This document shows, piece by piece, positions 988-11,310 of a DNA stretch of 64,000 nt; positions within the stretch are counted from its first letter, which is position 1; the number at the start of each line of letters is the position of its first letter. The stretch is from Sphingosinicella sp. CPCC 101087. GTDB lineage: Bacteria > Pseudomonadota > Alphaproteobacteria > Sphingomonadales > Sphingomonadaceae. A program made the position numbers and the translations under genes. The stretch lies in contig NZ_SBFF01000012.1 in assembly GCF_004151485.1 (NCBI RefSeq), positions 1 through 64,000 of the forward strand, given 5' to 3'. Below the pieces are notes generated by a model, which was not told where the DNA came from, did no database searches, and was given only the letters and a program-made list of their open reading frames with translations.

Positions 988-1030
988 TCCTTGGTCATGG
1001 CCATGACGTCCAACCAAGAGGAGTAATGCC

Positions 1031-1162
1031 ATGAATCGCGAATATGTTCACGAGGAGCTGATCGAGCTCGGCGTCGCCAGCGTCGATACCAAGGGCAACG
1101 GCGTGATCTCGTCCGACAATGAGGGCGGCGAGCTGCCGGCCCTCGGCCTTTCGGACGACTGA
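1031..1162 (+). CDS. lasso peptide precursor (A), sphingonodin-like
   Basis: This 43-residue ORF has a strong Shine-Dalgarno (AAGAGGAG at 1016-1023, 7 nt from ATG). The leader is residues 1-21 and ends V-D-T-K. The Thr at the penultimate leader position is the hallmark recognised by lasso B proteins. The core is residues 22-43, encoded at 1094-1159. Its ring segment reads GNGVISSD, giving Gly1 and Asp8 for an eight-residue macrolactam. The tail reads NEGGELPALGLSDD. The LSDD end and ring size resemble what I recall of the sphingonodin group, but the rest is different. The tail has no Trp, Tyr, Phe or Arg, so steric plugs would have to be Leu14, Leu17 or Leu19. Genes for B, C, isopeptidase and receptor sit alongside. 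Processing site and ring are inferred. Confidence 0.88.
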   Translation: MNREYVHEELIELGVASVDTKGNGVISSDNEGGELPALGLSDD

Positions 1163-1172
1163 TCTCTGGGGC

Positions 1173-1198
1173 AGGCGCGCGTCCGCGGGCGCGCGCCT
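1173..1198 (+). terminator. stem-loop between precursor and maturation genes
   Basis: A perfect 9-bp stem pairs 1173-1181 with 1190-1198 around an 8-nt loop, followed by CCTTTTCT. It lies between the precursor stop (1160-1162) and the B start (1212). Such a stem-loop after gene A is common in proteobacterial lasso operons. It is thought to stabilise precursor mRNA or partly terminate, so that peptide is made in excess over enzymes. Confidence 0.6.
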
Positions 1199-1211: not shown

Positions 1212-1880
1212 ATGTATGCTCGGCTGCGGCAAGGCCTTTCCTACGGGCTGTGCGGCGACAAGGTCGTTTTCCTCGATCTTGCCGCGGACCACTATTTCTG
1301 CCTGCCCGCGGGGCGCGAGAAGGCGTTCGTGGCATTGTCTCGTCTTGAGGGTGGAATAGAGTGGGACTCCTCGTTCGAGCCTCTTGCCGCCTTCGGCGTG
1401 ATCGAGCCTTCGGTCCAAGCGGAAGGTTTCGCGCCGCCGACTTCCATTGAGGTCCCGACCCATGACCTCGTCGATTGCACGGGCGAGGGGCCGTCTTGGC
1501 ACGACCTTGCGGGCGCCTGTGCCGCAGAGCTTGGAACGATGCTCTCCCTACGGACCCGACGCCTCGCCGACATCGTCGCCGAAATCGAGGCGTGCGGCCG
1601 CGGCCGCGCGGGGGACCAGCGGGATCGGGATTCCCGGCTGGGCCGGATCGCCGCTGCCTTTGCCAAGACGAGCTTCGTCTTCCCGGCCGCGGACCGGTGC
1701 CTCGTGCGTGCCGTCGCCATGATGCGGGCTTGCCACCGGCGAGACCTCTTCCCGCGCCTTGTCTTCGGCGTGAGGCTCCAGCCCTTCTCGGCGCATTGCT
1801 GGGTGCAGTCCGGCCCCAGCATGCTGATCGGCGGAGTGGAGCAGGCCCGGCTCTTCACCCCCGTTCGGGTGGTCGGGTGA
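1212..1880 (+). CDS. lasso peptide B protein (RRE + leader peptidase)
   Basis: This 222-residue protein would bind the precursor leader and cut it off. Residues 1-80 form the PqqD-like RiPP recognition element (GLCGDKVVFLDLAADHYFCLP). Residues from about 100 to the end form the transglutaminase-like Cys protease (B2) domain, with Cys163 in DRCLVRAVAM and His195 in SAHCWVQ. The usual third residue, an Asp about 12 positions after the His, is Gly207 here. The ATG at 1212 is chosen because it gives the normal length and avoids overlap with the precursor; its ribosome-binding site is weak, suggesting low or coupled translation. The stop overlaps the cyclase GTG start (GTGA at 1877-1880). Confidence 0.85.
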   Translation: MYARLRQGLSYGLCGDKVVFLDLAADHYFCLPAGREKAFVALSRLEGGIEWDSSFEPLAAFGVIEPSVQAEGFAPPTSIEVPTHDLVDCTGEGPSWHDLAGACAAELGTMLSLRTRRLADIVAEIEACGRGRAGDQRDRDSRLGRIAAAFAKTSFVFPAADRCLVRAVAMMRACHRRDLFPRLVFGVRLQPFSAHCWVQSGPSMLIGGVEQARLFTPVRVVG

Positions 1881-3649
1881 GGCCGACCTACCTTCTGGCC
1901 GTAGGGCGCCACCCTTCTGGGTGGGAGGAACTCGTGGCCGAGCTGGAGGCCCGGACCGGGCTCGCATGTGGGGTCAGGGCCTTCCCGCTGGCCGTGCTGA
2001 CCGACCCGGCATGCCCGCACTTGGCGCTCGACGGTGGCAGCGTGGTCATCGGAAGTCTTTTCGCGCGGCATGGTCCGGCCCGGAGGCTGGACCGTCTCGA
2101 CGATGCGGAGGATGCGACCGCTTGCGGCGGCGGCGGAGCAGGCCTGCTCCGCGGGTTCTGGGGCGGCTATGTTGCCGCGCTGCGGAGCGGCGACACCGTG
2201 CGCGTCCTGCGCGACCCTTCGGCGGCCTTGCCCTGCTACATGGCGTTCACCGGCCCGGCCGTGCTGTTGGCCTCCGATGTCGACCTGCTGATAATGGCGG
2301 GTGACCTTCGGCCCGCGCTCGATTGGACGGCGCTCGGAAGGCACCTGTTCGGCGCCGGCCTGCCATCCCCGGAGACGATCCTCACAGGGATCCGGGAGCT
2401 TCTGCCCGGCTTTGCCGTCGCGTTTCCCGGCGACGCCGACCGCCAGTTGATGGCCTGGTCGCCCTGGGACCATGTCGATAACGGAACGGTCAACGCCCTC
2501 GAGGAGCTGGCGGAGCGGCTTCGGCGGGTCGTGCGCCAGACTGTGCGGGCCTGGACCGGCGACCGTCGTCGGCCGCTGGTCAGCCTCTCGGGAGGGCTGG
2601 ATTCCTCGATCGTCGCCGCCTGCCTGGCCGAAGCCGGCGCCGCGGTGTGCCTCACCACTTATGCCGACGATCCACTGGCCGACGAACGCGACTATGCGCG
2701 CCAGCTGTGCCGGCACCTCGGGCTCGAGCTCGTCGAGGCGCGGCTGCGGCTCGAGGATGTGGACATCGAGGCGCCGCTCGCGGCCCATCTGCCGCGGCCG
2801 TTCGGCTTCACCCATGCTCTCGCCTACGAACGGGCGCATGGCGAGTTGGCCCGCAAGGTGGCGGCGGACGCCTTCGTGACGGGCAATGGCGGCGACCAGG
2901 TCTTCGCCTACTCGCAGTCGGCCGCGGCGATCGCCGATCGAATGCTGGCCGAAGGCTTGGGTCGCGGCGTGCTCCACACGCTTGGTGACGTATGCCGGCA
3001 AACTGGCTGCAGCGTCTCGCAAGCCGCCACGGCCGCCCTACGGCTGGCCTGGTCGCGGCCCGGCTACCGGTGGCGCTACAAACCGGCCTTCCTCGCGCCC
3101 GACCTGCTGGCGCGGATTCCCGCGAGCGCGTTTGGGCATCCGTGGCTCGAGGCTCCCCCGACATGCCTCCCCGGCAAGGCCGCGCATGTCGCGACCCTGC
3201 TGAGGGTCCAGCGCAACCTCGAGCCGCCAAGGAGCCGTCTGGCGCCCGTGCTCAACCCGCTGCTGTCTCAGCCGGTGATGGAGACGTGCCTCGCCATTCC
3301 GTCCTGGATGTGGCGGGCGGGGGGTGTCGACCGCGCGGTGGCGCGGCAAGCCTTCGCGCGGGATCTGCCGGAGGTGGTCGTACGTCGCCGCACCAAGGGC
3401 AGTCCGGACAGCTTTGCTGCCCAACTCCTCGACCATTATCGCGGGAGGATCCGCGAGCGCCTGCTCGACGGTCGGCTGATCGGCCAGGCCATGCTCGACC
3501 GCGCAGCGCTCGAAGAGGCGCTCCGCGGCGGCGTCGCGCAGGGCGGCGAGGCGCGAATGCGTATCCTCGAGCTGCTCGCGGTGGAAGCGTGGCTCGACAG
3601 CTGGACGTCCCGGCTCAGTCCGTCGGCGGCAAGCCGGCGCCGGCCCTGA
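1877..3649 (+). CDS. lasso peptide cyclase (C), asparagine-synthetase homologue
   Basis: This 590-residue enzyme would adenylate the core Asp8 side chain and join it to Gly1 N. The N-terminal half resembles the class II glutaminase fold but lacks the N-terminal catalytic Cys, as usual for cyclases. The ATP-pyrophosphatase signature SGGLDSS is at residues 238-244, and VTGNGGDQVF follows at about residue 335. A GTG start at 1877 overlaps the TGA of the B gene in a GTGA junction, so the two proteins are probably translationally coupled. The last 35 bp overlap the 3' end of the opposing isopeptidase gene. Length and motifs agree with sphingomonad and Caulobacter cyclases. Confidence 0.88.
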   Translation: MRPTYLLAVGRHPSGWEELVAELEARTGLACGVRAFPLAVLTDPACPHLALDGGSVVIGSLFARHGPARRLDRLDDAEDATACGGGGAGLLRGFWGGYVAALRSGDTVRVLRDPSAALPCYMAFTGPAVLLASDVDLLIMAGDLRPALDWTALGRHLFGAGLPSPETILTGIRELLPGFAVAFPGDADRQLMAWSPWDHVDNGTVNALEELAERLRRVVRQTVRAWTGDRRRPLVSLSGGLDSSIVAACLAEAGAAVCLTTYADDPLADERDYARQLCRHLGLELVEARLRLEDVDIEAPLAAHLPRPFGFTHALAYERAHGELARKVAADAFVTGNGGDQVFAYSQSAAAIADRMLAEGLGRGVLHTLGDVCRQTGCSVSQAATAALRLAWSRPGYRWRYKPAFLAPDLLARIPASAFGHPWLEAPPTCLPGKAAHVATLLRVQRNLEPPRSRLAPVLNPLLSQPVMETCLAIPSWMWRAGGVDRAVARQAFARDLPEVVVRRRTKGSPDSFAAQLLDHYRGRIRERLLDGRLIGQAMLDRAALEEALRGGVAQGGEARMRILELLAVEAWLDSWTSRLSPSAASRRRP

Positions 3650-5723
3650 GCACTTCCCAATGCCGGAGCTCTGCCTGCCGTTCTGCGCTCTCAGGGCGGA
3701 TGCCGCGCAGCCAATAGTCGAACCAGTCCAGCGCCCGCCGGTAGACGGCGAGCCGATGCGCCGGCTGCCACTTGATATGGGTCTCGTCCGGGAAGACGTA
3801 CATGTCGGCGGGGGAGCGTGCCTCCCGCAGCGCCGTGAAGCTTTGCAGGGCGCTCATCAGCTCAGTGTCGGCGACCTGGAGCAGGATCGGCGTGCGGATC
3901 CGGCGCGCGTTGCGGGACACCGAGATGGGTCGCCAGAAGTCTTCCGCCGGCTCGATTGTCGGCGGATAGCCGGAGGCTCGGAAATAGCTCGCGGCGGCGG
4001 GCCCAACCCTGGTGGGCAGCATCGTGTCGATACAGCAATGGCTCAGTGCGGCCACCTTGAAGGGCGTGCCGTTGATGAGCGCGAAAGTGGCGGTGGTCGC
4101 GCCGTCGCTGACTCCGGTGACCCCCAGCCGATCATAATCGGCGATGCCGCGTTCGATCAGATGCTGCAGACCCAGTTCGAGCGCGGAATGAACGCTGCGC
4201 CGGTCTGCGAACCCCGCCAGGTTGGCGCGCTCGACCTCGACCTTGTCGGTAAGCCCACGTGCCAGGCCCACGAGCCGGGGTCGGGCAAGGCTGAGCACGG
4301 CATAGCCGCGGTTGGCGAAGGCCTGGATCGGATATTCGTCCCCAGTGCCGCCGCGCAGAAAGCCGTGCGTCTCATATTGGACGACGACAAGCGGGTAGCG
4401 CCGCCCGGGGCGGTAGCCGACCGGGTAGACGAGGTCGCCCACCGTCTCCGATCCGGCGGCGTTGCGCCAGCGCAGGCGCTCGACCCGCCCGAGCGTCAGC
4501 CGTGCAAATTCGGGATTTGGGTCGAACAGGAGTTCGCGTCGTCCGGTGTCGGCGTCGAGCCGCTCCAGCCGCCGCGGCTCGACCGCGCCCTCGCGCAGGC
4601 AGATCAGGGCGGTGCCGGAAGGCACGCATTCGACCAGCCAGTCGCCGGTCAGGTGGAGGCGGCGCACCGTGCCGCTCGCGGGGGTCCATTGGTAGATTGC
4701 TGTCAGGCTCGCCGCCCAGCCCTCGCGCCGGAAGTAGCGCACATGTTGCCCGTCGGGCGTCCACCAGGGCCGGCTGGCGCCGGCGCAGGCCGGAGCGCGG
4801 CACTCGACCGGAGCGGCGTTGCCGGTCTGGACGAAGAGCCGCGCGGTTTGCGGCGCGAACGGATTGGGCTGCTCGGTCCAGGCGCGCCGGTCCTGGCTAG
4901 GCGCGGCCGAGGTCCATAGAACGTCCTGTGGCGCCCGGGCTTCGAGGAGTGTGGACTCGCTGGCGCTTGCGGCTCGCACCGCCCCGGTCGCGAGGTCGAG
5001 GACATGCGTGGCCGTCGGGACGGGCGCCGCGGGGAACGGCCGGTTGCTCGCCACGGGCGCGTAGCGTTCATCATAATGGAAGCCGGAACGCCCTTCCTGC
5101 TCGATGCGTGCTCGGGCGGCGCGCAGGGCCGGCCGCGTCGTGAAGATGATTGTCCGGCCGTGCGGCCCGATCCGGAGGTCCTCCACGTCATCCATTCCGG
5201 CGAACAGTGGCTCGCTGCCGCGCCCATCGGCCCGTGCGCGCCAGATCTGGGTGTTGCCGCCGACTCGCTTCAGGAAGGCGATCCATTGCCCGTCCGGCGA
5301 CCAGTGGGGCGTGATCGCGCGAGGGATCCCGGTCTGGAATCCGGCCTTGCCGCGGAATGCGCGAGCGATCCGGATGAGCTCCCCGCCTCGATCGACGATG
5401 ACCGGGCGTGCGCCCGGGCGAACCTCCATGACGAGCATCGCCAGGCAATAACTGTTGCGGTGCGGGTCGGCTCGACGCAACTGAAAGGCGAGACGCCGTC
5501 CGTCCGGCGACAAGGTCATCAGCCGCGCGTCGGGCGTCGTGGGACCTGCCGGGCCAATGTCGCGCAGCCGCACCAGGTCTTCCGGCGTGAGCGACCTCGT
5601 CGCGGCCGCGGCTGCATCCGGCGATGGCAAGAGATCGGCGCAATTGGCGGCCTCCGGGCCGGCCGCGAGAGTGGCCGAAGGCGCGAGGCCGGCCAGTGCG
5701 AGGCCGAGGGCGATACGGCGCAT
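3615..5723 (-). CDS. lasso peptide isopeptidase, Atxe2-like (S9 prolyl-oligopeptidase fold)
   Basis: This 702-residue protein has a signal peptide (MRRIALGLALAGLAPSATLA), a beta-propeller N-terminal two thirds with repeated SPDG-type blades, and a C-terminal alpha/beta hydrolase domain. The predicted triad is Ser539 in GVSDG, Asp619 in VADTEL and His649 in DETHIKW. Spacing is very close to that published for Atxe2. Homologues cut the isopeptide bond of folded lasso peptides, giving linear peptide. The ATG at 5723 is preferred over the GTG at 5726 because GAGGAG lies 6 nt upstream of it. It overlaps the receptor stop (TGATG), so the gene is the last of the sigma-fecR-receptor operon. Substrate is inferred from the adjacent precursor. 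Confidence 0.85.
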   Translation of the reverse strand: MRRIALGLALAGLAPSATLAAGPEAANCADLLPSPDAAAAATRSLTPEDLVRLRDIGPAGPTTPDARLMTLSPDGRRLAFQLRRADPHRNSYCLAMLVMEVRPGARPVIVDRGGELIRIARAFRGKAGFQTGIPRAITPHWSPDGQWIAFLKRVGGNTQIWRARADGRGSEPLFAGMDDVEDLRIGPHGRTIIFTTRPALRAARARIEQEGRSGFHYDERYAPVASNRPFPAAPVPTATHVLDLATGAVRAASASESTLLEARAPQDVLWTSAAPSQDRRAWTEQPNPFAPQTARLFVQTGNAAPVECRAPACAGASRPWWTPDGQHVRYFRREGWAASLTAIYQWTPASGTVRRLHLTGDWLVECVPSGTALICLREGAVEPRRLERLDADTGRRELLFDPNPEFARLTLGRVERLRWRNAAGSETVGDLVYPVGYRPGRRYPLVVVQYETHGFLRGGTGDEYPIQAFANRGYAVLSLARPRLVGLARGLTDKVEVERANLAGFADRRSVHSALELGLQHLIERGIADYDRLGVTGVSDGATTATFALINGTPFKVAALSHCCIDTMLPTRVGPAAASYFRASGYPPTIEPAEDFWRPISVSRNARRIRTPILLQVADTELMSALQSFTALREARSPADMYVFPDETHIKWQPAHRLAVYRRALDWFDYWLRGIRPESAERQAELRHWEVLRAGAGLPPTD

Positions 5724-8332
5724 CACCAGCTCCTCGTCAGCGAAAGTCCGATGAAGCGCCCCACCGGCGACTGATTGGTGGAATCGTAGGGCACCGACCC
5801 CGGATTGGGGTTTCGGATGAGGTCCGGCCTCTCGTCGAGCAGGTTGAGGACGTTGAGGCGCAGTTCGAAACCGCTGAGAGGACCGCTGTCCGCAAAGCCG
5901 CGCAGGCTCGCGCTCATGTCGACGGTGACGAACGGAGCGATCCGCTGCAGCGGTGCCCGGCGATCGTCCAGCACTGGACCGGTATAGTTCAGGAACGCGG
6001 TGAAGCTGGCGCGCTCGCTCCGCCAGGTGCCGCCGAAGCGGGCGCGCCAGTGGGGCGGGTTGAAGATCCGGCCCGCCCGTTCGGCGAAGGGCTGGCCCTC
6101 GATGAGCTGGCGAGCGCTCTCGAGATAGCTTGCCGAGCCGCTGAGCAGCAGGCGCTGGCCTGCCGAAAGGTCCAGGTCGTAGTCCATCGCAACGTCGACG
6201 CCGCGGGCCCGCTCGCGCGCGGCGTTGCGGATCGAGCTGTCGAAGATCGCGCCGACCAGGACGGGGTCGAAAGGTTGGCCTGTGATGTTGTCAAGGCCGA
6301 GTGGCAGCCCGGCGACGATCGACTCCACGAGTTCCGGCGCCGGATCGAAGGTAATGAGGTCTCGGTAGATCGGATTGCCGAGGCCGGCGAGAAAGCCAAT
6401 GACCGGACTTGCGATGCGGTCGCGATAGTCGATGTCGAAATAGGTCGCCTCGACGCGCAGTCCCTCGGCGAAGCGCGGACGAAGCTCGACGGTGGTCGAC
6501 CAAGTGGTGGCGCGCTCCGCCCGCAGCCCCTCGCCACCCCCGAGCAGGAGCAGCACGGTCTCGCCGGCCGGGATCGGCGGTTGGGGCTGCGGTGAGAACA
6601 GGCGTCCGGGCAGCAGCGCGCCTTCGGGAACGAGGTTGACTTGGTCGAGGGTCGGAACCTTGAAGGACTCGCCCCATGAGGCACGCAGCGTCACGTCCTG
6701 ATGCGGCTGATAGACGAGGCCCAGCTTGGGCGTCGCCACTTCGTCTATGCCCTCGTGCCGCTCGTAGCGGACGGCGGCGCTGACGGTCAGTCGGTGTATT
6801 AAGGGCAGCCCGAACTCCGGGGCGACCAGTGGCAAGGACAGCTCGCCATAGGCGAACTGGACGCCGCGCGAGTCGGTGAAGTCGCGCGTCGTCACGACCG
6901 TCCCGTCGACGCTCTGGGCCACGTTGACGTCGAGCAGCACGCTTCGATAGCCGCCGCCGACCGCAAGCCGAGCGGCGCCGCCGGGCAGGCGGAACAGCGG
7001 ACCTTCGGCATTGGCCTCGATCCCGGTCGTGCGGTTCTCGTAGATGAGGCGCTGGGGGACCTCCACGCTGGCGGTGTAGCGACGGGAATCGATGTCGGTG
7101 CGGCTGACGGCGCGCGTCGCGCTGATCGAGGCTTCCCAGCCATGCGGCAGCGCGAGGCGAAGCGTCGGCGTGACTGCCCAGGAGCGAACGAGGGGCCGGT
7201 TGACGAGGCCGTCGGTGAGCACGTCGCGGTCGGCGAAGAAGGGGGTCTGCTTGAGGGAGCGACGCCGGTTGAAGAAGGCGTCCAGCTCGAGCGTCATGCC
7301 GCCGGTGAGAGCCTGCTGCCCGGCAAGGACGAGGGCATGGCGAATGCTGCGCTGGATCAGCGTTTGCGACCCATCGAGGCTGGAAGCATATTCGCGGTCC
7401 GCCGCCAGGATCGGTGTCGTGCGGCCATGATCGTAGGCGGCCATGAAGCCGCCGGACGACCAGTCGGCGCCGCCGACCATGCTATACTGCTGCTGGACGT
7501 TGCCGCCCGCGGTGGAGCCTCCCAGCCGGGCGCCGACCTGCAGACCGTCATAGCGGCGCCTCAAGATGATGTTGGCGACGCCGCCGACGGCGTCAGAGCC
7601 GTAGAGCGCCGAGGCGCCGTCGGCGATCACCTCGATCCGCTCGACGGCCGCGAGCGGAATGGCGGAGATGTCGACGCCCTGGTTGAGGGCGTCATAGGCG
7701 ATGCGGTGCCCGTTCACGAGCGTCAGCGTCGCATCGGGGCCTAAACCCCTGAGATTCAACGTCGCCGAATTGTTGATATTGCTCTGCCCGCCCTGGTCGC
7801 CACCGCCGGCGACGCCGGGATTCTGGCCGCCGGAGAAGTTCTGGGGAAGGATGCGGGTGAAATCGGCGAGGCCGCTGGCGCCCGCTTCCTCGAGCTCGCG
7901 GCGCGTCATCACGATGACCGGGGAAGGTGATTGAGTGCCGCGGATGCGGGTGCCGGTCACCGTGATTCCGACTTCTTTCGCGCCGGAGGCGGCCGCTTTC
8001 GGTGCGCTCGTGGGCGCGCGGACCAGCATCGCGCCTTCGTGCGTCTCGACGACGAGGCCGGTCCCGGCGACCACGGTCCTCACGGCTTCAGCGAGCGTGA
8101 ACCGGCCTTGAAGGGGAGGTGACCGCCGCCCCTGGACGGCTTCGGCAACGAAGATCACCTCGCCTCCCGAGGTCCGCGCGATGGATCGCAGCGCCTCGGC
8201 AAGATCCTGCGCCGGCAGGTCATAATCGGCTCGAAGCTGGGCCTGTGCCATGAGCGCCGCCGGCGCCGAGATTCCGCTGGTCAATGCCGCCGCCACGAGG
8301 CAGCCGGCGCGAAGCGCACCTTTGGTTTTCAT
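5723..8332 (-). CDS. TonB-dependent receptor with STN signalling domain
   Basis: This 869-residue outer-membrane receptor has a signal peptide, then an STN domain (about 35-105, starting YDLPAQDLAEALRSIARTSG) that contacts FecR. The plug follows (about 125-290, with LNLRGLGPDATLTLVNGHRI and VERIEVIADGASALYGSDAVGGVANI) and then the 22-strand barrel. It probably imports a lasso peptide, its own product or a competitor's, powered by TonB. A strong Shine-Dalgarno (GGAGGAGA) precedes the ATG. It lies between FecR and the isopeptidase, with 96 bp separating it from FecR. That gap has a GC-rich dyad but no clear terminator. Ligand assignment rests on gene neighbourhood only. Confidence 0.88.
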   Translation of the reverse strand: MKTKGALRAGCLVAAALTSGISAPAALMAQAQLRADYDLPAQDLAEALRSIARTSGGEVIFVAEAVQGRRSPPLQGRFTLAEAVRTVVAGTGLVVETHEGAMLVRAPTSAPKAAASGAKEVGITVTGTRIRGTQSPSPVIVMTRRELEEAGASGLADFTRILPQNFSGGQNPGVAGGGDQGGQSNINNSATLNLRGLGPDATLTLVNGHRIAYDALNQGVDISAIPLAAVERIEVIADGASALYGSDAVGGVANIILRRRYDGLQVGARLGGSTAGGNVQQQYSMVGGADWSSGGFMAAYDHGRTTPILAADREYASSLDGSQTLIQRSIRHALVLAGQQALTGGMTLELDAFFNRRRSLKQTPFFADRDVLTDGLVNRPLVRSWAVTPTLRLALPHGWEASISATRAVSRTDIDSRRYTASVEVPQRLIYENRTTGIEANAEGPLFRLPGGAARLAVGGGYRSVLLDVNVAQSVDGTVVTTRDFTDSRGVQFAYGELSLPLVAPEFGLPLIHRLTVSAAVRYERHEGIDEVATPKLGLVYQPHQDVTLRASWGESFKVPTLDQVNLVPEGALLPGRLFSPQPQPPIPAGETVLLLLGGGEGLRAERATTWSTTVELRPRFAEGLRVEATYFDIDYRDRIASPVIGFLAGLGNPIYRDLITFDPAPELVESIVAGLPLGLDNITGQPFDPVLVGAIFDSSIRNAARERARGVDVAMDYDLDLSAGQRLLLSGSASYLESARQLIEGQPFAERAGRIFNPPHWRARFGGTWRSERASFTAFLNYTGPVLDDRRAPLQRIAPFVTVDMSASLRGFADSGPLSGFELRLNVLNLLDERPDLIRNPNPGSVPYDSTNQSPVGRFIGLSLTRSW

Positions 8333-8428: not shown

Positions 8429-9460
8429 TCATCGAGCGGTGAGGACGATCCGCTCCGGGTCGCTTCGGTCGACCTTCAGGCCGAGCAGGATGGCGAGCCT
8501 GTCGGCGAGGCGCTCGGTGTTGCCGAGCCTGAACCGTCCGGAAACGCGGCGATCGCCGAGAGCTGCATTCGAGAGATGGATGGGCCTCGCCGTGCCCCGG
8601 TTGGCCTCGGCGATGAGGTCGGCGAGCCGGACGGGTCCGAACTCGCGGATGTCGCCATCCACTGGCCGCGCGCCGGGTGAAACGGGCAGTTCGGCGCCCG
8701 TTCCGGCCGTGCCGGTCTGCGCGCCGAACGAGACACGCTCGCCGGCAGCCAGCCGGCGGACGTCCGGTGCGTTTCCGCTAGACGCCTGGGCGGCCGGGAG
8801 CGTCACGTCGACCACACCCTCGACGAGATGCACCGTCACGCGCTGGGCGGCGTCGACGGCGATATCGAATATCGTCCCTCGGGCCGTGATTCGTCCGCCC
8901 CCGGCCTCGACGTTGAACGGACGGTGGTCGGCGGCAACCTCGAAGCGGGCGAGGCCGCTCACCAGGCGCAGGTCGCGTGCAGCGGAGTTCAGTCGGACCT
9001 GGAGGCGGGTCCCGGCGCCGAGCAGGAGGGTCGATCCGTCGGCGAGGCGCACGCGGCGCTCTTGATCCGGGCCGGTTACGAGGATCTGGTCTGCACCGCC
9101 GGCGCGGCTTGCAATTGCCGGCTGCTGCCCGGGAGAGGAGGCGGCGCGGGTCGCCAGCCAGCCCGCCGCCGCAGCCAGCAGCAGCAGGCCCACCAGGCCC
9201 GCGACGAGCTGCGAGCGCCGAGATCTGGCGGTTGGCGCGGGGTCCCCTGCGGGTCGCTGCTCGTCGGCCAGCAGCTTGCCCATCGCGAATATTTCGGCGG
9301 CGCGGTTGTAGGCGCTACGGTGTAGGGCGCCCCGAGCGATCCACGCTTGGAACGCCTCGCGATGGGATTCGGCGTCCGGGCCTCGCATGCGCGCGAACCA
9401 GGTAGCTGCCTCGCGCATCAGCGGGTCGCGTTCCACCTCCCGATCGACAGGCGCACTCAT
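8429..9460 (-). CDS. fecR: FecR-family anti-sigma regulator
   Basis: This 343-residue inner-membrane signal transducer has an N-terminal cytoplasmic DUF4880-type helix region (REAATWFARMRGPDAESHREAF). One membrane segment follows (QLVAGLVGLLLLAAAAGWLA, about residues 83-102), then a periplasmic FecR domain (GTIFDIAVDAAQRVTVHLVEGVVDV) and a C-terminal STN-like segment. It relays occupancy of the TonB receptor to the ECF sigma factor. The ATG at 9460 overlaps the sigma stop in an ATGA junction, so the pair is co-translated. A longer open frame upstream is not used because it lies inside the sigma gene. Confidence 0.87.
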   Translation of the reverse strand: MSAPVDREVERDPLMREAATWFARMRGPDAESHREAFQAWIARGALHRSAYNRAAEIFAMGKLLADEQRPAGDPAPTARSRRSQLVAGLVGLLLLAAAAGWLATRAASSPGQQPAIASRAGGADQILVTGPDQERRVRLADGSTLLLGAGTRLQVRLNSAARDLRLVSGLARFEVAADHRPFNVEAGGGRITARGTIFDIAVDAAQRVTVHLVEGVVDVTLPAAQASSGNAPDVRRLAAGERVSFGAQTGTAGTGAELPVSPGARPVDGDIREFGPVRLADLIAEANRGTARPIHLSNAALGDRRVSGRFRLGNTERLADRLAILLGLKVDRSDPERIVLTAR

Positions 9461-10032
9461 CGCTTGTCCAGTTCGCTCCCGATCCGCACGATCGCCTCGG
9501 CCATGTGCCACTCGACCGTGCGGACGCTGATACCAAGCCGTTCGGCAATCGTCTTGTAGCCGAGACCTTCGATCCGGTGGAGGACGAATACCTGCCGCAT
9601 GCGTGGCGGGAGAGTCGCGACAGCCGCACGGTAGCGCGAACGCATGTCCTCGAGCTCCATGTCTTCATATTGTCCAGGCGGTGCGCTGAGCTCGGGTGCG
9701 TCCTCGAGCGGCACCTGCACGGCCCGCGTGCGAAGGCGGCGGGACCGGTCGATCAGGAGGTTGCGAACGATCCTGCCCAGGAACGCCTCGGGCCGGCGCA
9801 GCCCCTGTCCGGCTCCGGCGCGCAGGAGCCGGGCGAAGGCGTCTTGGACGAGATCGCGTGCCTCCTCGCTGCAACGGAGGCGGGAACCGACCTGGCGGCG
9901 GAGCCGTGCCGCCTGCTCCCGGTAGAGCAGCTCGACGCGCCGCCGTTCCGCCCCGGACGTCTCCGATGGGTGGTTGCGGCAGGGATCATTGTTCTCGTCG
10001 TCCACCGATTCAGGCGGCGGCGCGGACGACAT
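9457..10032 (-). CDS. FecI-like ECF sigma factor
   Basis: This 191-residue sigma factor has region 2 at about 35-100 (LYREQAARLRRQV through EARDLVQDAFARLL and FLGRIVRNLLIDRSRR). Region 4 is at about 130-185 (VATLPPRMRQVFVLHRIEGLGYKTIAERLGIS). It is first in a minus-strand operon with fecR, the TonB receptor and the isopeptidase. It should activate that operon when the receptor is occupied. The 279 bp upstream to the MucR gene would hold its promoter; I could not define one. ECF/FecR control of a lasso uptake operon is a known arrangement in sphingomonads. Confidence 0.88.
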   Translation of the reverse strand: MSSAPPPESVDDENNDPCRNHPSETSGAERRRVELLYREQAARLRRQVGSRLRCSEEARDLVQDAFARLLRAGAGQGLRRPEAFLGRIVRNLLIDRSRRLRTRAVQVPLEDAPELSAPPGQYEDMELEDMRSRYRAAVATLPPRMRQVFVLHRIEGLGYKTIAERLGISVRTVEWHMAEAIVRIGSELDKR

Positions 10033-10311: not shown

Positions 10312-10827
10312 TCAGGACTTGGCAGCGCGCCGGCGCGGTGCGCGAGCGGGCTTTGCTGGAGCCGAGGCGCTCGCTTCCGCCTTGGTGCGGCGACCCTTCT
10401 GGCCGAGACCGATTTTCTTCGCCATGTTGCGCCGGGCTTCCGAATAATTCGCCGCGACCATCGGATAATCGGACTTGAGATTATAGCGCTCGCGATATTG
10501 CTCGGGCGTCAGACCATGGGTGGAAAGATGACGGCGCAGCGTCTTGTATGGCTTGCCGTCGATCATCGAGATGATGTGGTCCTTCGAGGCAAGCGATTTG
10601 CGAACCGACACGGCCGGAGTGAACGTCTGTGCCGGCTTGCTGCTCTCGGAATCGTCTCGGGAAGATCCGTTTGCCAGCGCCGTCACGGTGGCGTGCATGG
10701 TTTTCAGAAACTCCGGTACCTCGTCGGCCTGCACCCGGTTGTTCTGGTTGCCGAGCCAGGCGATGGTCAGCTCGGTTGCGAGCTCCACCGCGTTCAATTC
10801 TGGTTGTACTTGTTGCTGTTCGGCCAT
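10312..10827 (-). CDS. MucR/Ros-family transcriptional regulator
   Basis: This protein of about 171 residues has an acidic N-terminus (NAVELATELTIAWLGNQNN), a central Ros/MucR DNA-binding domain (YKTLRRHLSTHGLTPEQYRERY, then SDYPMVAANYSEARRNMAKKIGLG), and a basic Ala/Lys/Arg-rich tail. The two Cys that hold zinc in Ros are absent (DHIISMIDGK replaces the Cys-containing stretch), while the two His remain. Several MucR relatives share this, so it may bind DNA without classical zinc. The ATG at 10827 gives the family length. MucR proteins usually silence AT-rich or acquired genes; no target is evident here. Confidence 0.82.
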   Translation of the reverse strand: MAEQQQVQPELNAVELATELTIAWLGNQNNRVQADEVPEFLKTMHATVTALANGSSRDDSESSKPAQTFTPAVSVRKSLASKDHIISMIDGKPYKTLRRHLSTHGLTPEQYRERYNLKSDYPMVAANYSEARRNMAKKIGLGQKGRRTKAEASASAPAKPARAPRRRAAKS

Positions 10828-11310
10828 GGGGGATTTCCAATTGCAAGGGGGAGAGTTACTGCGCCAGAGCGCCATAGCGGAGAACTTCAAACTGTCTAAC
10901 CTGCGGTGTTCCGCATGTTCGGTTGCAGAGCATCCGTTCGACCGGATCCGCTATTGATACGCGCCAGGAACAATCTGCGTTCCCGAGCACTTATTTCACC
11001 TGAGCGTGGCCGCTGGCGTCGGCAGGTGGCCAAGTGCCACGCTTTGCCTTGTTCGCTCGTTTGCTGACGAAGCATCCTGGCCCTGACTTCGGTTGGCTGC
11101 GCAAATCGTCGCGGCACGAAAAACTTGGGCGAAGCGACATCAGGGCTTGTCGGCGGAGACCATAAGGCAGTCGGCTAACAGCGCGGCTTGGGGTCTCCAG
11201 GCGCGGGTCGTCTCTTTGTCTTCGGTCCTCGGGCGTATCCGGTAGGCCCGCCGTGTCACCGCTGCCTATTGCAGCTCGCATCCAAAACAAAAATGCGACA
11301 AGCTGAATAA
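10828..11310. other. intergenic, no gene seen
   Basis: About 480 bp between the mucR-like gene and the transporter remnant. Short frames on both strands carry no recognisable domain. It presumably contains the mucR promoter near 10,830-10,960, where GC content falls. No hairpin or repeat stood out. Confidence 0.5.

Follow-up and report, generated by a model that had tools for sequence, protein, structure and literature searches.

Organization of the gene cluster

The stretch of DNA analyzed here, referred to as the window, is 64,000 nucleotides (64 kb) long, and a set of seven genes lies close to its beginning. The putative precursor gene A and the genes B and C are on the forward strand, while the genes for an isopeptidase, a TonB-dependent receptor, a FecR-type anti-sigma factor and an ECF sigma factor are on the reverse strand. 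The features are as follows.

1019 to 1023, forward strand: Shine-Dalgarno-like AGGAG of gene A, found by eye, 7 nt before the ATG
1031 to 1162, forward strand: gene A, ORF for a putative 43-aa lasso peptide precursor, with matches to NF033522 and PF24178
1031 to 1093, forward strand: predicted leader of A, 21 aa, Thr at position -2, MNREYVHEELIELGVASVDTK, placed by the T-x-G boundary conserved across 88 precursors
1094 to 1159, forward strand: predicted core of A, 22 aa, GNGVISSDNEGGELPALGLSDD, with a predicted Gly1-Asp8 macrolactam, placed by the same boundary and by the acceptor Asp/Glu at core position 8 or 9
1173 to 1198, forward strand: A-B intergenic hairpin, GC-rich, with a stem of 11 pairs and a 4-nt loop, from fold prediction
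1212 to 1880, forward strand: gene B, 222 aa, with a C-terminal B2 leader-peptidase domain at residues 108-220 (NF033537, 73.1 bits, cut-off 33; PF13471, 68.2 bits)
1877 to 3649, forward strand: gene C, 590 aa, asparagine-synthetase-like macrolactam synthetase with the motif SGGLDSS (PF00733, 94.7 bits, cut-off 21)
3615 to 5726, reverse strand: Atxe2-family lasso peptide isopeptidase, 703 aa (NF033523, 817 bits, cut-off 400; AtxE2 5txc, E 8.5e-136)
5723 to 8332, reverse strand: TonB-dependent receptor, 869 aa, with an N-terminal STN domain (PF00593, PF07715, PF07660)
8429 to 9466, reverse strand: FecR-type anti-sigma factor (PF04773, PF16220); the start was chosen by us, and the listed ORF begins at 9511
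9457 to 10032, reverse strand: FecI-type ECF sigma factor, 191 aa (PF04542, PF08281; TIGR02937 over cut-off)

The precursor, B2 and isopeptidase models over their cut-offs, the Asn_synthase domain in C and the layout shared with other loci make it highly likely that a sphingomonad-like alphaproteobacterium has here a complete lasso peptide gene cluster of the benenodin/subterisin type. Gene C has a GTG start overlapping the stop of B. Its matches to the NCBIfam cyclase models were all far below their cut-offs, a point against this reading. The 3' end of the isopeptidase gene overlaps the 3' end of C. AtxE2, a lasso isopeptidase of solved structure, aligns over residues 38-696 of the isopeptidase, and Ser540, Glu622 and His650 stand opposite Ser527, Glu610 and His638 of AtxE2 (hand-counted on the alignment), which we take to be the catalytic triad of that enzyme. 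No ABC transporter was found among these cluster genes, the region from 10 to 64 kb being sampled by 7 long ORFs.

The surroundings of the cluster include a ROS/MUCR transcriptional regulator (PF05443) at 10312-10890 on the reverse strand, just past the sigma factor. Position 1 of the window coincides with a contig end, which leaves the sequence before it outside view, and positions 1-78 of the forward strand hold the last codons of an ORF ending in RANAGFRMRF, perhaps an outer-membrane protein, as judged by eye.

Gene A probably codes for a precursor of the benenodin/subterisin family

The first-pass annotation had claimed a small 43-residue ORF at 1031-1162, with Thr at leader position -2, Gly at core position 1, Asp at core position 8 and an LSDD end, lying just upstream of B and C. 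All of these are present in the sequence, including the genes B (1212-1880) and C (1877-3649) downstream on the forward strand. The ORF runs from the ATG at 1031 to the stop at 1160-1162 and codes for MNREYVHEELIELGVASVDTKGNGVISSDNEGGELPALGLSDD, in which the leader-core junction reads D-T-K/G. Gene A matched the NCBIfam model NF033522 (benenodin family lasso peptide) with 49.9 bits (cut-off 33, E 2.1e-13) over positions 1-43 of 43, and the Pfam model PF24178 (Subterisin) with 53.3 bits (cut-off 27, E 2.8e-14) over positions 1-42 of 42. The PF24178 search gave no match in any of 14 control genomes. Thus, the small ORF very probably encodes a lasso peptide precursor, and the proposal of a Gly1-Asp8 ring holds at the level of sequence, that is, as a class II-type precursor beside B and C with a predicted ring.

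It might be argued that the ORF next to B and C is open merely by chance and that the true precursor lies elsewhere, for which its short length is the sole point in favor. However, the E-values of 2.1e-13 and 2.8e-14 to the precursor families and the relatives with the same place, length and boundary argue against this. In addition, a generic precursor pattern (ATG with a Shine-Dalgarno-like motif, T-x-G, an acidic residue at core position 8 or 9 and a short tail) returned a raw count of one ORF on both strands of the 64 kb, namely gene A. The chance frame was rejected on the family matches and relatives, and we give it almost no credence. Two further comparisons of A were carried out. Between A and its relative in the same-genus genome G024, 6 of 42 codons differ synonymously vs. 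15 that change the amino acid, which adds nothing in favor of purifying selection on A. The search for a related solved structure gave no convincing match, the best being EF-hand proteins at E 0.14, which were taken as chance.

For comparison, 89 precursor peptides were found, and one 184-aa chance match was dropped, leaving 88 distinct precursors, A included, 4 of which are known only from separate genome-contig loci. Weak places below the Pfam cut-off (G103, G281, G343 contig 2 and G078) were left out of the set. The leader-core boundary was set by script, except in 4 precursors that were read by eye and also have T-x-G with the acceptor at core position 8. Thr at -2, Gly at core 1 and Asp/Glu at core 8 or 9 are common to all 88 precursors, A among them, with the acceptor at core 8 in 79 and at core 9 in 9.

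The PF24178 precursor family was found in 9 of the 26 same-genus genomes. Of 397 same-family genomes, a sample drawn from a larger group, 68 had the family, 65 of them with a match over the curated cut-off. Relatives of B were present in 11 of the 26 same-genus genomes, 4 were found in the separate genome-contig collection at 27-29% identity, and 22 in plasmid records, all below 60% identity. The conserved unit is the whole cluster: the seven genes were found in the same order and orientation by tblastn in the same-genus loci L056, L057 and L058. In L059 and L060 all but A were found by tblastn and the precursors by profile, giving the same seven genes, and L061 has them too, with the precursor counted by tblastn or profile. 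In L062, a contig edge inside the isopeptidase cuts the cluster. Several relatives carry two neighboring precursor genes per cluster, where the window has one; these are L061/L064 (G003), L060/L105 (G017), L065 (G326), L067 (G353), L087 (G330), L097 (G221) and L115 (G146).

Comparison with named systems

The closest cluster is that of G024 (L056/L009), in which all seven genes are present, with identities to the window of 63% for A, 51% for B, 62% for C, 63% for the isopeptidase and 69% for the TonB receptor. The G024 core is identical to the A core at 12 of 22 positions; unlike the A core, its tail has Lys13 and Arg15.

A similar arrangement has been described for sphingocin, a predicted lasso peptide of Sphingomonas BPH with the core GPGFINNDGVGGKLPFAGLSDD, whose A-B-C operon is given, like that of the window, without an ABC transporter and with a divergent isopeptidase and TonB receptor (PMC11006600). 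Both cores have 22 aa, a Gly start, Asp8 and a GLSDD end, and are identical in place at 13 of 22 positions; sphingocin has Phe4, Phe16 and Lys13, whereas the A core has Val4, Ala16 and Glu13 (PMC11006600). A B2 transposon mutant of Sphingomonas BPH lost the use of phenanthrene (PMC11006600). No link to phenanthrene use was seen for the window cluster.

The benenodin family (NF033522), typified by benenodin-1 of Asticcacaulis benevestitus, is matched by A over its full length and above the cut-off. It shares with A an 8-residue ring, predicted in A, and an E-x pair at the predicted lock, and, according to the literature, has the same layout of A-B-C with isopeptidase and TonB receptor. The benenodin-1 core gave no match among PDB sequences. 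The Subterisin model (PF24178) is matched by A over the cut-off across 42 of 42 model positions, although the subterisin core differs from that of A; the precursor in locus L038 appears to carry the subterisin core. The plasmid pCHQ1 of Sphingobium indicum UT26S (NC_014007.1) carries A, B, C, TonB receptor, FecR and sigma factor genes in the same order as the window, and the isopeptidase is not listed in its gene table, which is incomplete. Its 46-aa precursor, with a GISDD end, is annotated as a benenodin family lasso peptide, which means that short length need not hide such a precursor. The pCHQ1 core differs in having Lys in the tail and shows low identity to the A core. Presumably, this precursor is that of sphingonodin II.

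Taken together, the proposal of a lasso peptide that is new in kind is not supported, because two curated families cover A and the predicted sphingocin core resembles it. A is an additional member of the known benenodin/subterisin family, which is covered by curated models and well represented among related bacteria. The exact string GNGVISSD did not occur in the main texts of the open-licence papers searched, but the core shares 13 positions with sphingocin. The individual core sequence of A may well be unpublished, and it adds one more core, not found in those main texts, to a large known family.

A conserved hairpin follows the precursor gene

In all 87 precursors with 80 nt available downstream, the predicted fold of the 80 nt after A contains a stem with 8 or more consecutive pairs, and in 86 of the 87 the stem has 10 or more. 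The corresponding control counts were 231 and 99 of 435 in dinucleotide shuffles, 56 and 23 of 87 in upstream stretches, and 60 and 32 of 118 at random places. The A-B hairpin of the window had a z of -4.66 in 49 nt against dinucleotide shuffles, but only -1.36 in 80 nt against single-base shuffles. A role as a terminator was considered and rejected. The T-run is broken in the window and mostly missing in the aligned relatives, and we therefore read the hairpin as setting the ratio of A to B and C or protecting the mRNA. Replacement of the A-B intergenic region has been reported to give higher heterologous yield, and the entry for astexin-1 names 'removal of the hairpin' (PMC7549694), which makes this an established measure. 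A point against the main reading is that the scan of 600-1300 gave no consensus sigma-70 promoter, with 0.5 expected.

The predicted leader peptidase B has a mildly unusual active site

No model matched the N-terminal part of B, and these ~100 aa would correspond to the B1/RRE part. In the C-terminal domain, the Cys and His are kept, and Gly-Gly occupies positions +12 and +13 after the active-site His (HCWVQSGPSMLIGG). For the alignment, 58 matches were reduced to 39 distinct fragments, and fragments above 150 aa in length were kept, giving 35 rows including the window. Asp is present at His+12 in 28 of the 35 proteins and only at +13 in 4 (32 of 35 together), and the exceptions are the B proteins of the window and of G024, both with Gly-Gly, and that of L016. 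The triad of McjB is Cys-His-Asp, and no mutant of the Asp was found in the paper describing it (PMC11420955). Solved structures related to B gave no match at E 1, and only the window's B was found in the genome at a strong E-value, a match on another contig at E 0.34 being taken as chance.

These results raise the question of whether the cluster is decaying, with loss of a catalytic residue from the B peptidase and no production of the peptide, and B could indeed be weak or inactive without the usual Asp. The Gly-Gly in place of an Asp found in 32 of 35 aligned proteins is in line with such decay. However, all cluster genes are open, the Cys and His of B are kept, and G024 has the same Gly-Gly together with an intact cluster. 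Since two clusters whose B proteins share 51% identity have the same change, it would be older than their split and is probably tolerated. Moreover, papain-like triads can often do without their third residue. Decay is thus quite improbable in our view, and a complete gene cluster is the preferred reading.

The plain tail and the lock of the predicted lasso

The tail of the A core, NEGGELPALGLSDD, contains no F, W, Y, H, R or K, as had been observed in the first-pass annotation for aromatic residues and Arg. The same annotation asked how the thread would then be held, but a special problem of this kind is not supported by the family. Tails without F, W, Y or R, the residues it had named, occur in 18 of the 88 precursors, and in benenodin-1 the ring sits between Glu14 and Gln15, while Lys17 stops a second conformer (PMC13352647). 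Tails without aromatics or His were found in 36 of the 88, and those without F, W, Y, H, R or K form a regular minority of 13, with 12 distinct cores. The plain tail of A is therefore a minority type in the family, not an anomaly.

In the proposed mechanism, gene A, with an intact ORF and its family match, would give the 43-aa precursor. As expected for its family, B would bind the leader and cut after Lys21, and C would use ATP to activate the side chain of Asp8 and link it to Gly1, closing the 8-residue ring around the tail. Based on alignment with Glu14/Gln15 of benenodin-1, Glu13 and Leu14 would most likely hold the ring between them, and Leu17 may serve as a second stop. Benenodin-1 has Lys17 as the stopper of its second conformer (PMC13352647), whereas the A tail has no basic residue. 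Most steric locks of lasso peptides are bulky aromatics (PMC13352647). In the published table, sphingonodin II, syanodin I and sphingopyxin I are not heat-stable, and the sphingonodins, syanodin I and the sphingopyxins are not carboxypeptidase-Y-stable (PMC7549694). Given these observations on usual locks and on sensitive sphingomonad relatives, a loose lock in the A product is plausible.

The same observations could be taken further, to a processed precursor whose product is branched-cyclic and unthreaded, or a lasso that slips easily for want of a bulky tail stop: the composition of the tail, the frequent heat or carboxypeptidase sensitivity of relatives and the prevalence of aromatic locks all point that way. 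However, 13 of the 88 precursors have a tail of this composition, the lock of benenodin-1 lies between Glu14 and Gln15 (PMC13352647), and an isopeptidase of the AtxE2 family, an enzyme stated in a review to recognize threaded lasso peptides only, is present. An unthreaded or slipping product is thus unlikely, and a threaded lasso remains our preferred reading. We would put forward, with similarly low expectation, a more specific version of it, in which a lasso without an aromatic or basic stopper is loosely held at Glu13/Leu14, is able to slide or open, and is matured by a clade of B proteins (window and G024) working without the usual third Asp of the triad.

As suggested by the gene content and by hypotheses in the literature, the finished peptide, perhaps with bound cargo, may re-enter through the TonB receptor, uptake may be signaled via FecR and the sigma factor, and the isopeptidase may open the ring of the re-imported peptide. 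A role as a siderophore-like carrier has been hypothesized in the literature (PMC11006600). A loose lock, if true, would fit with re-import of the peptide and its opening by the cognate isopeptidase. As a test of the role of isopeptidase-linked lasso peptides, the window cluster is no better than those already studied, while the regular minority of plain tails makes the family convenient for probing the lower size limit of a plug.
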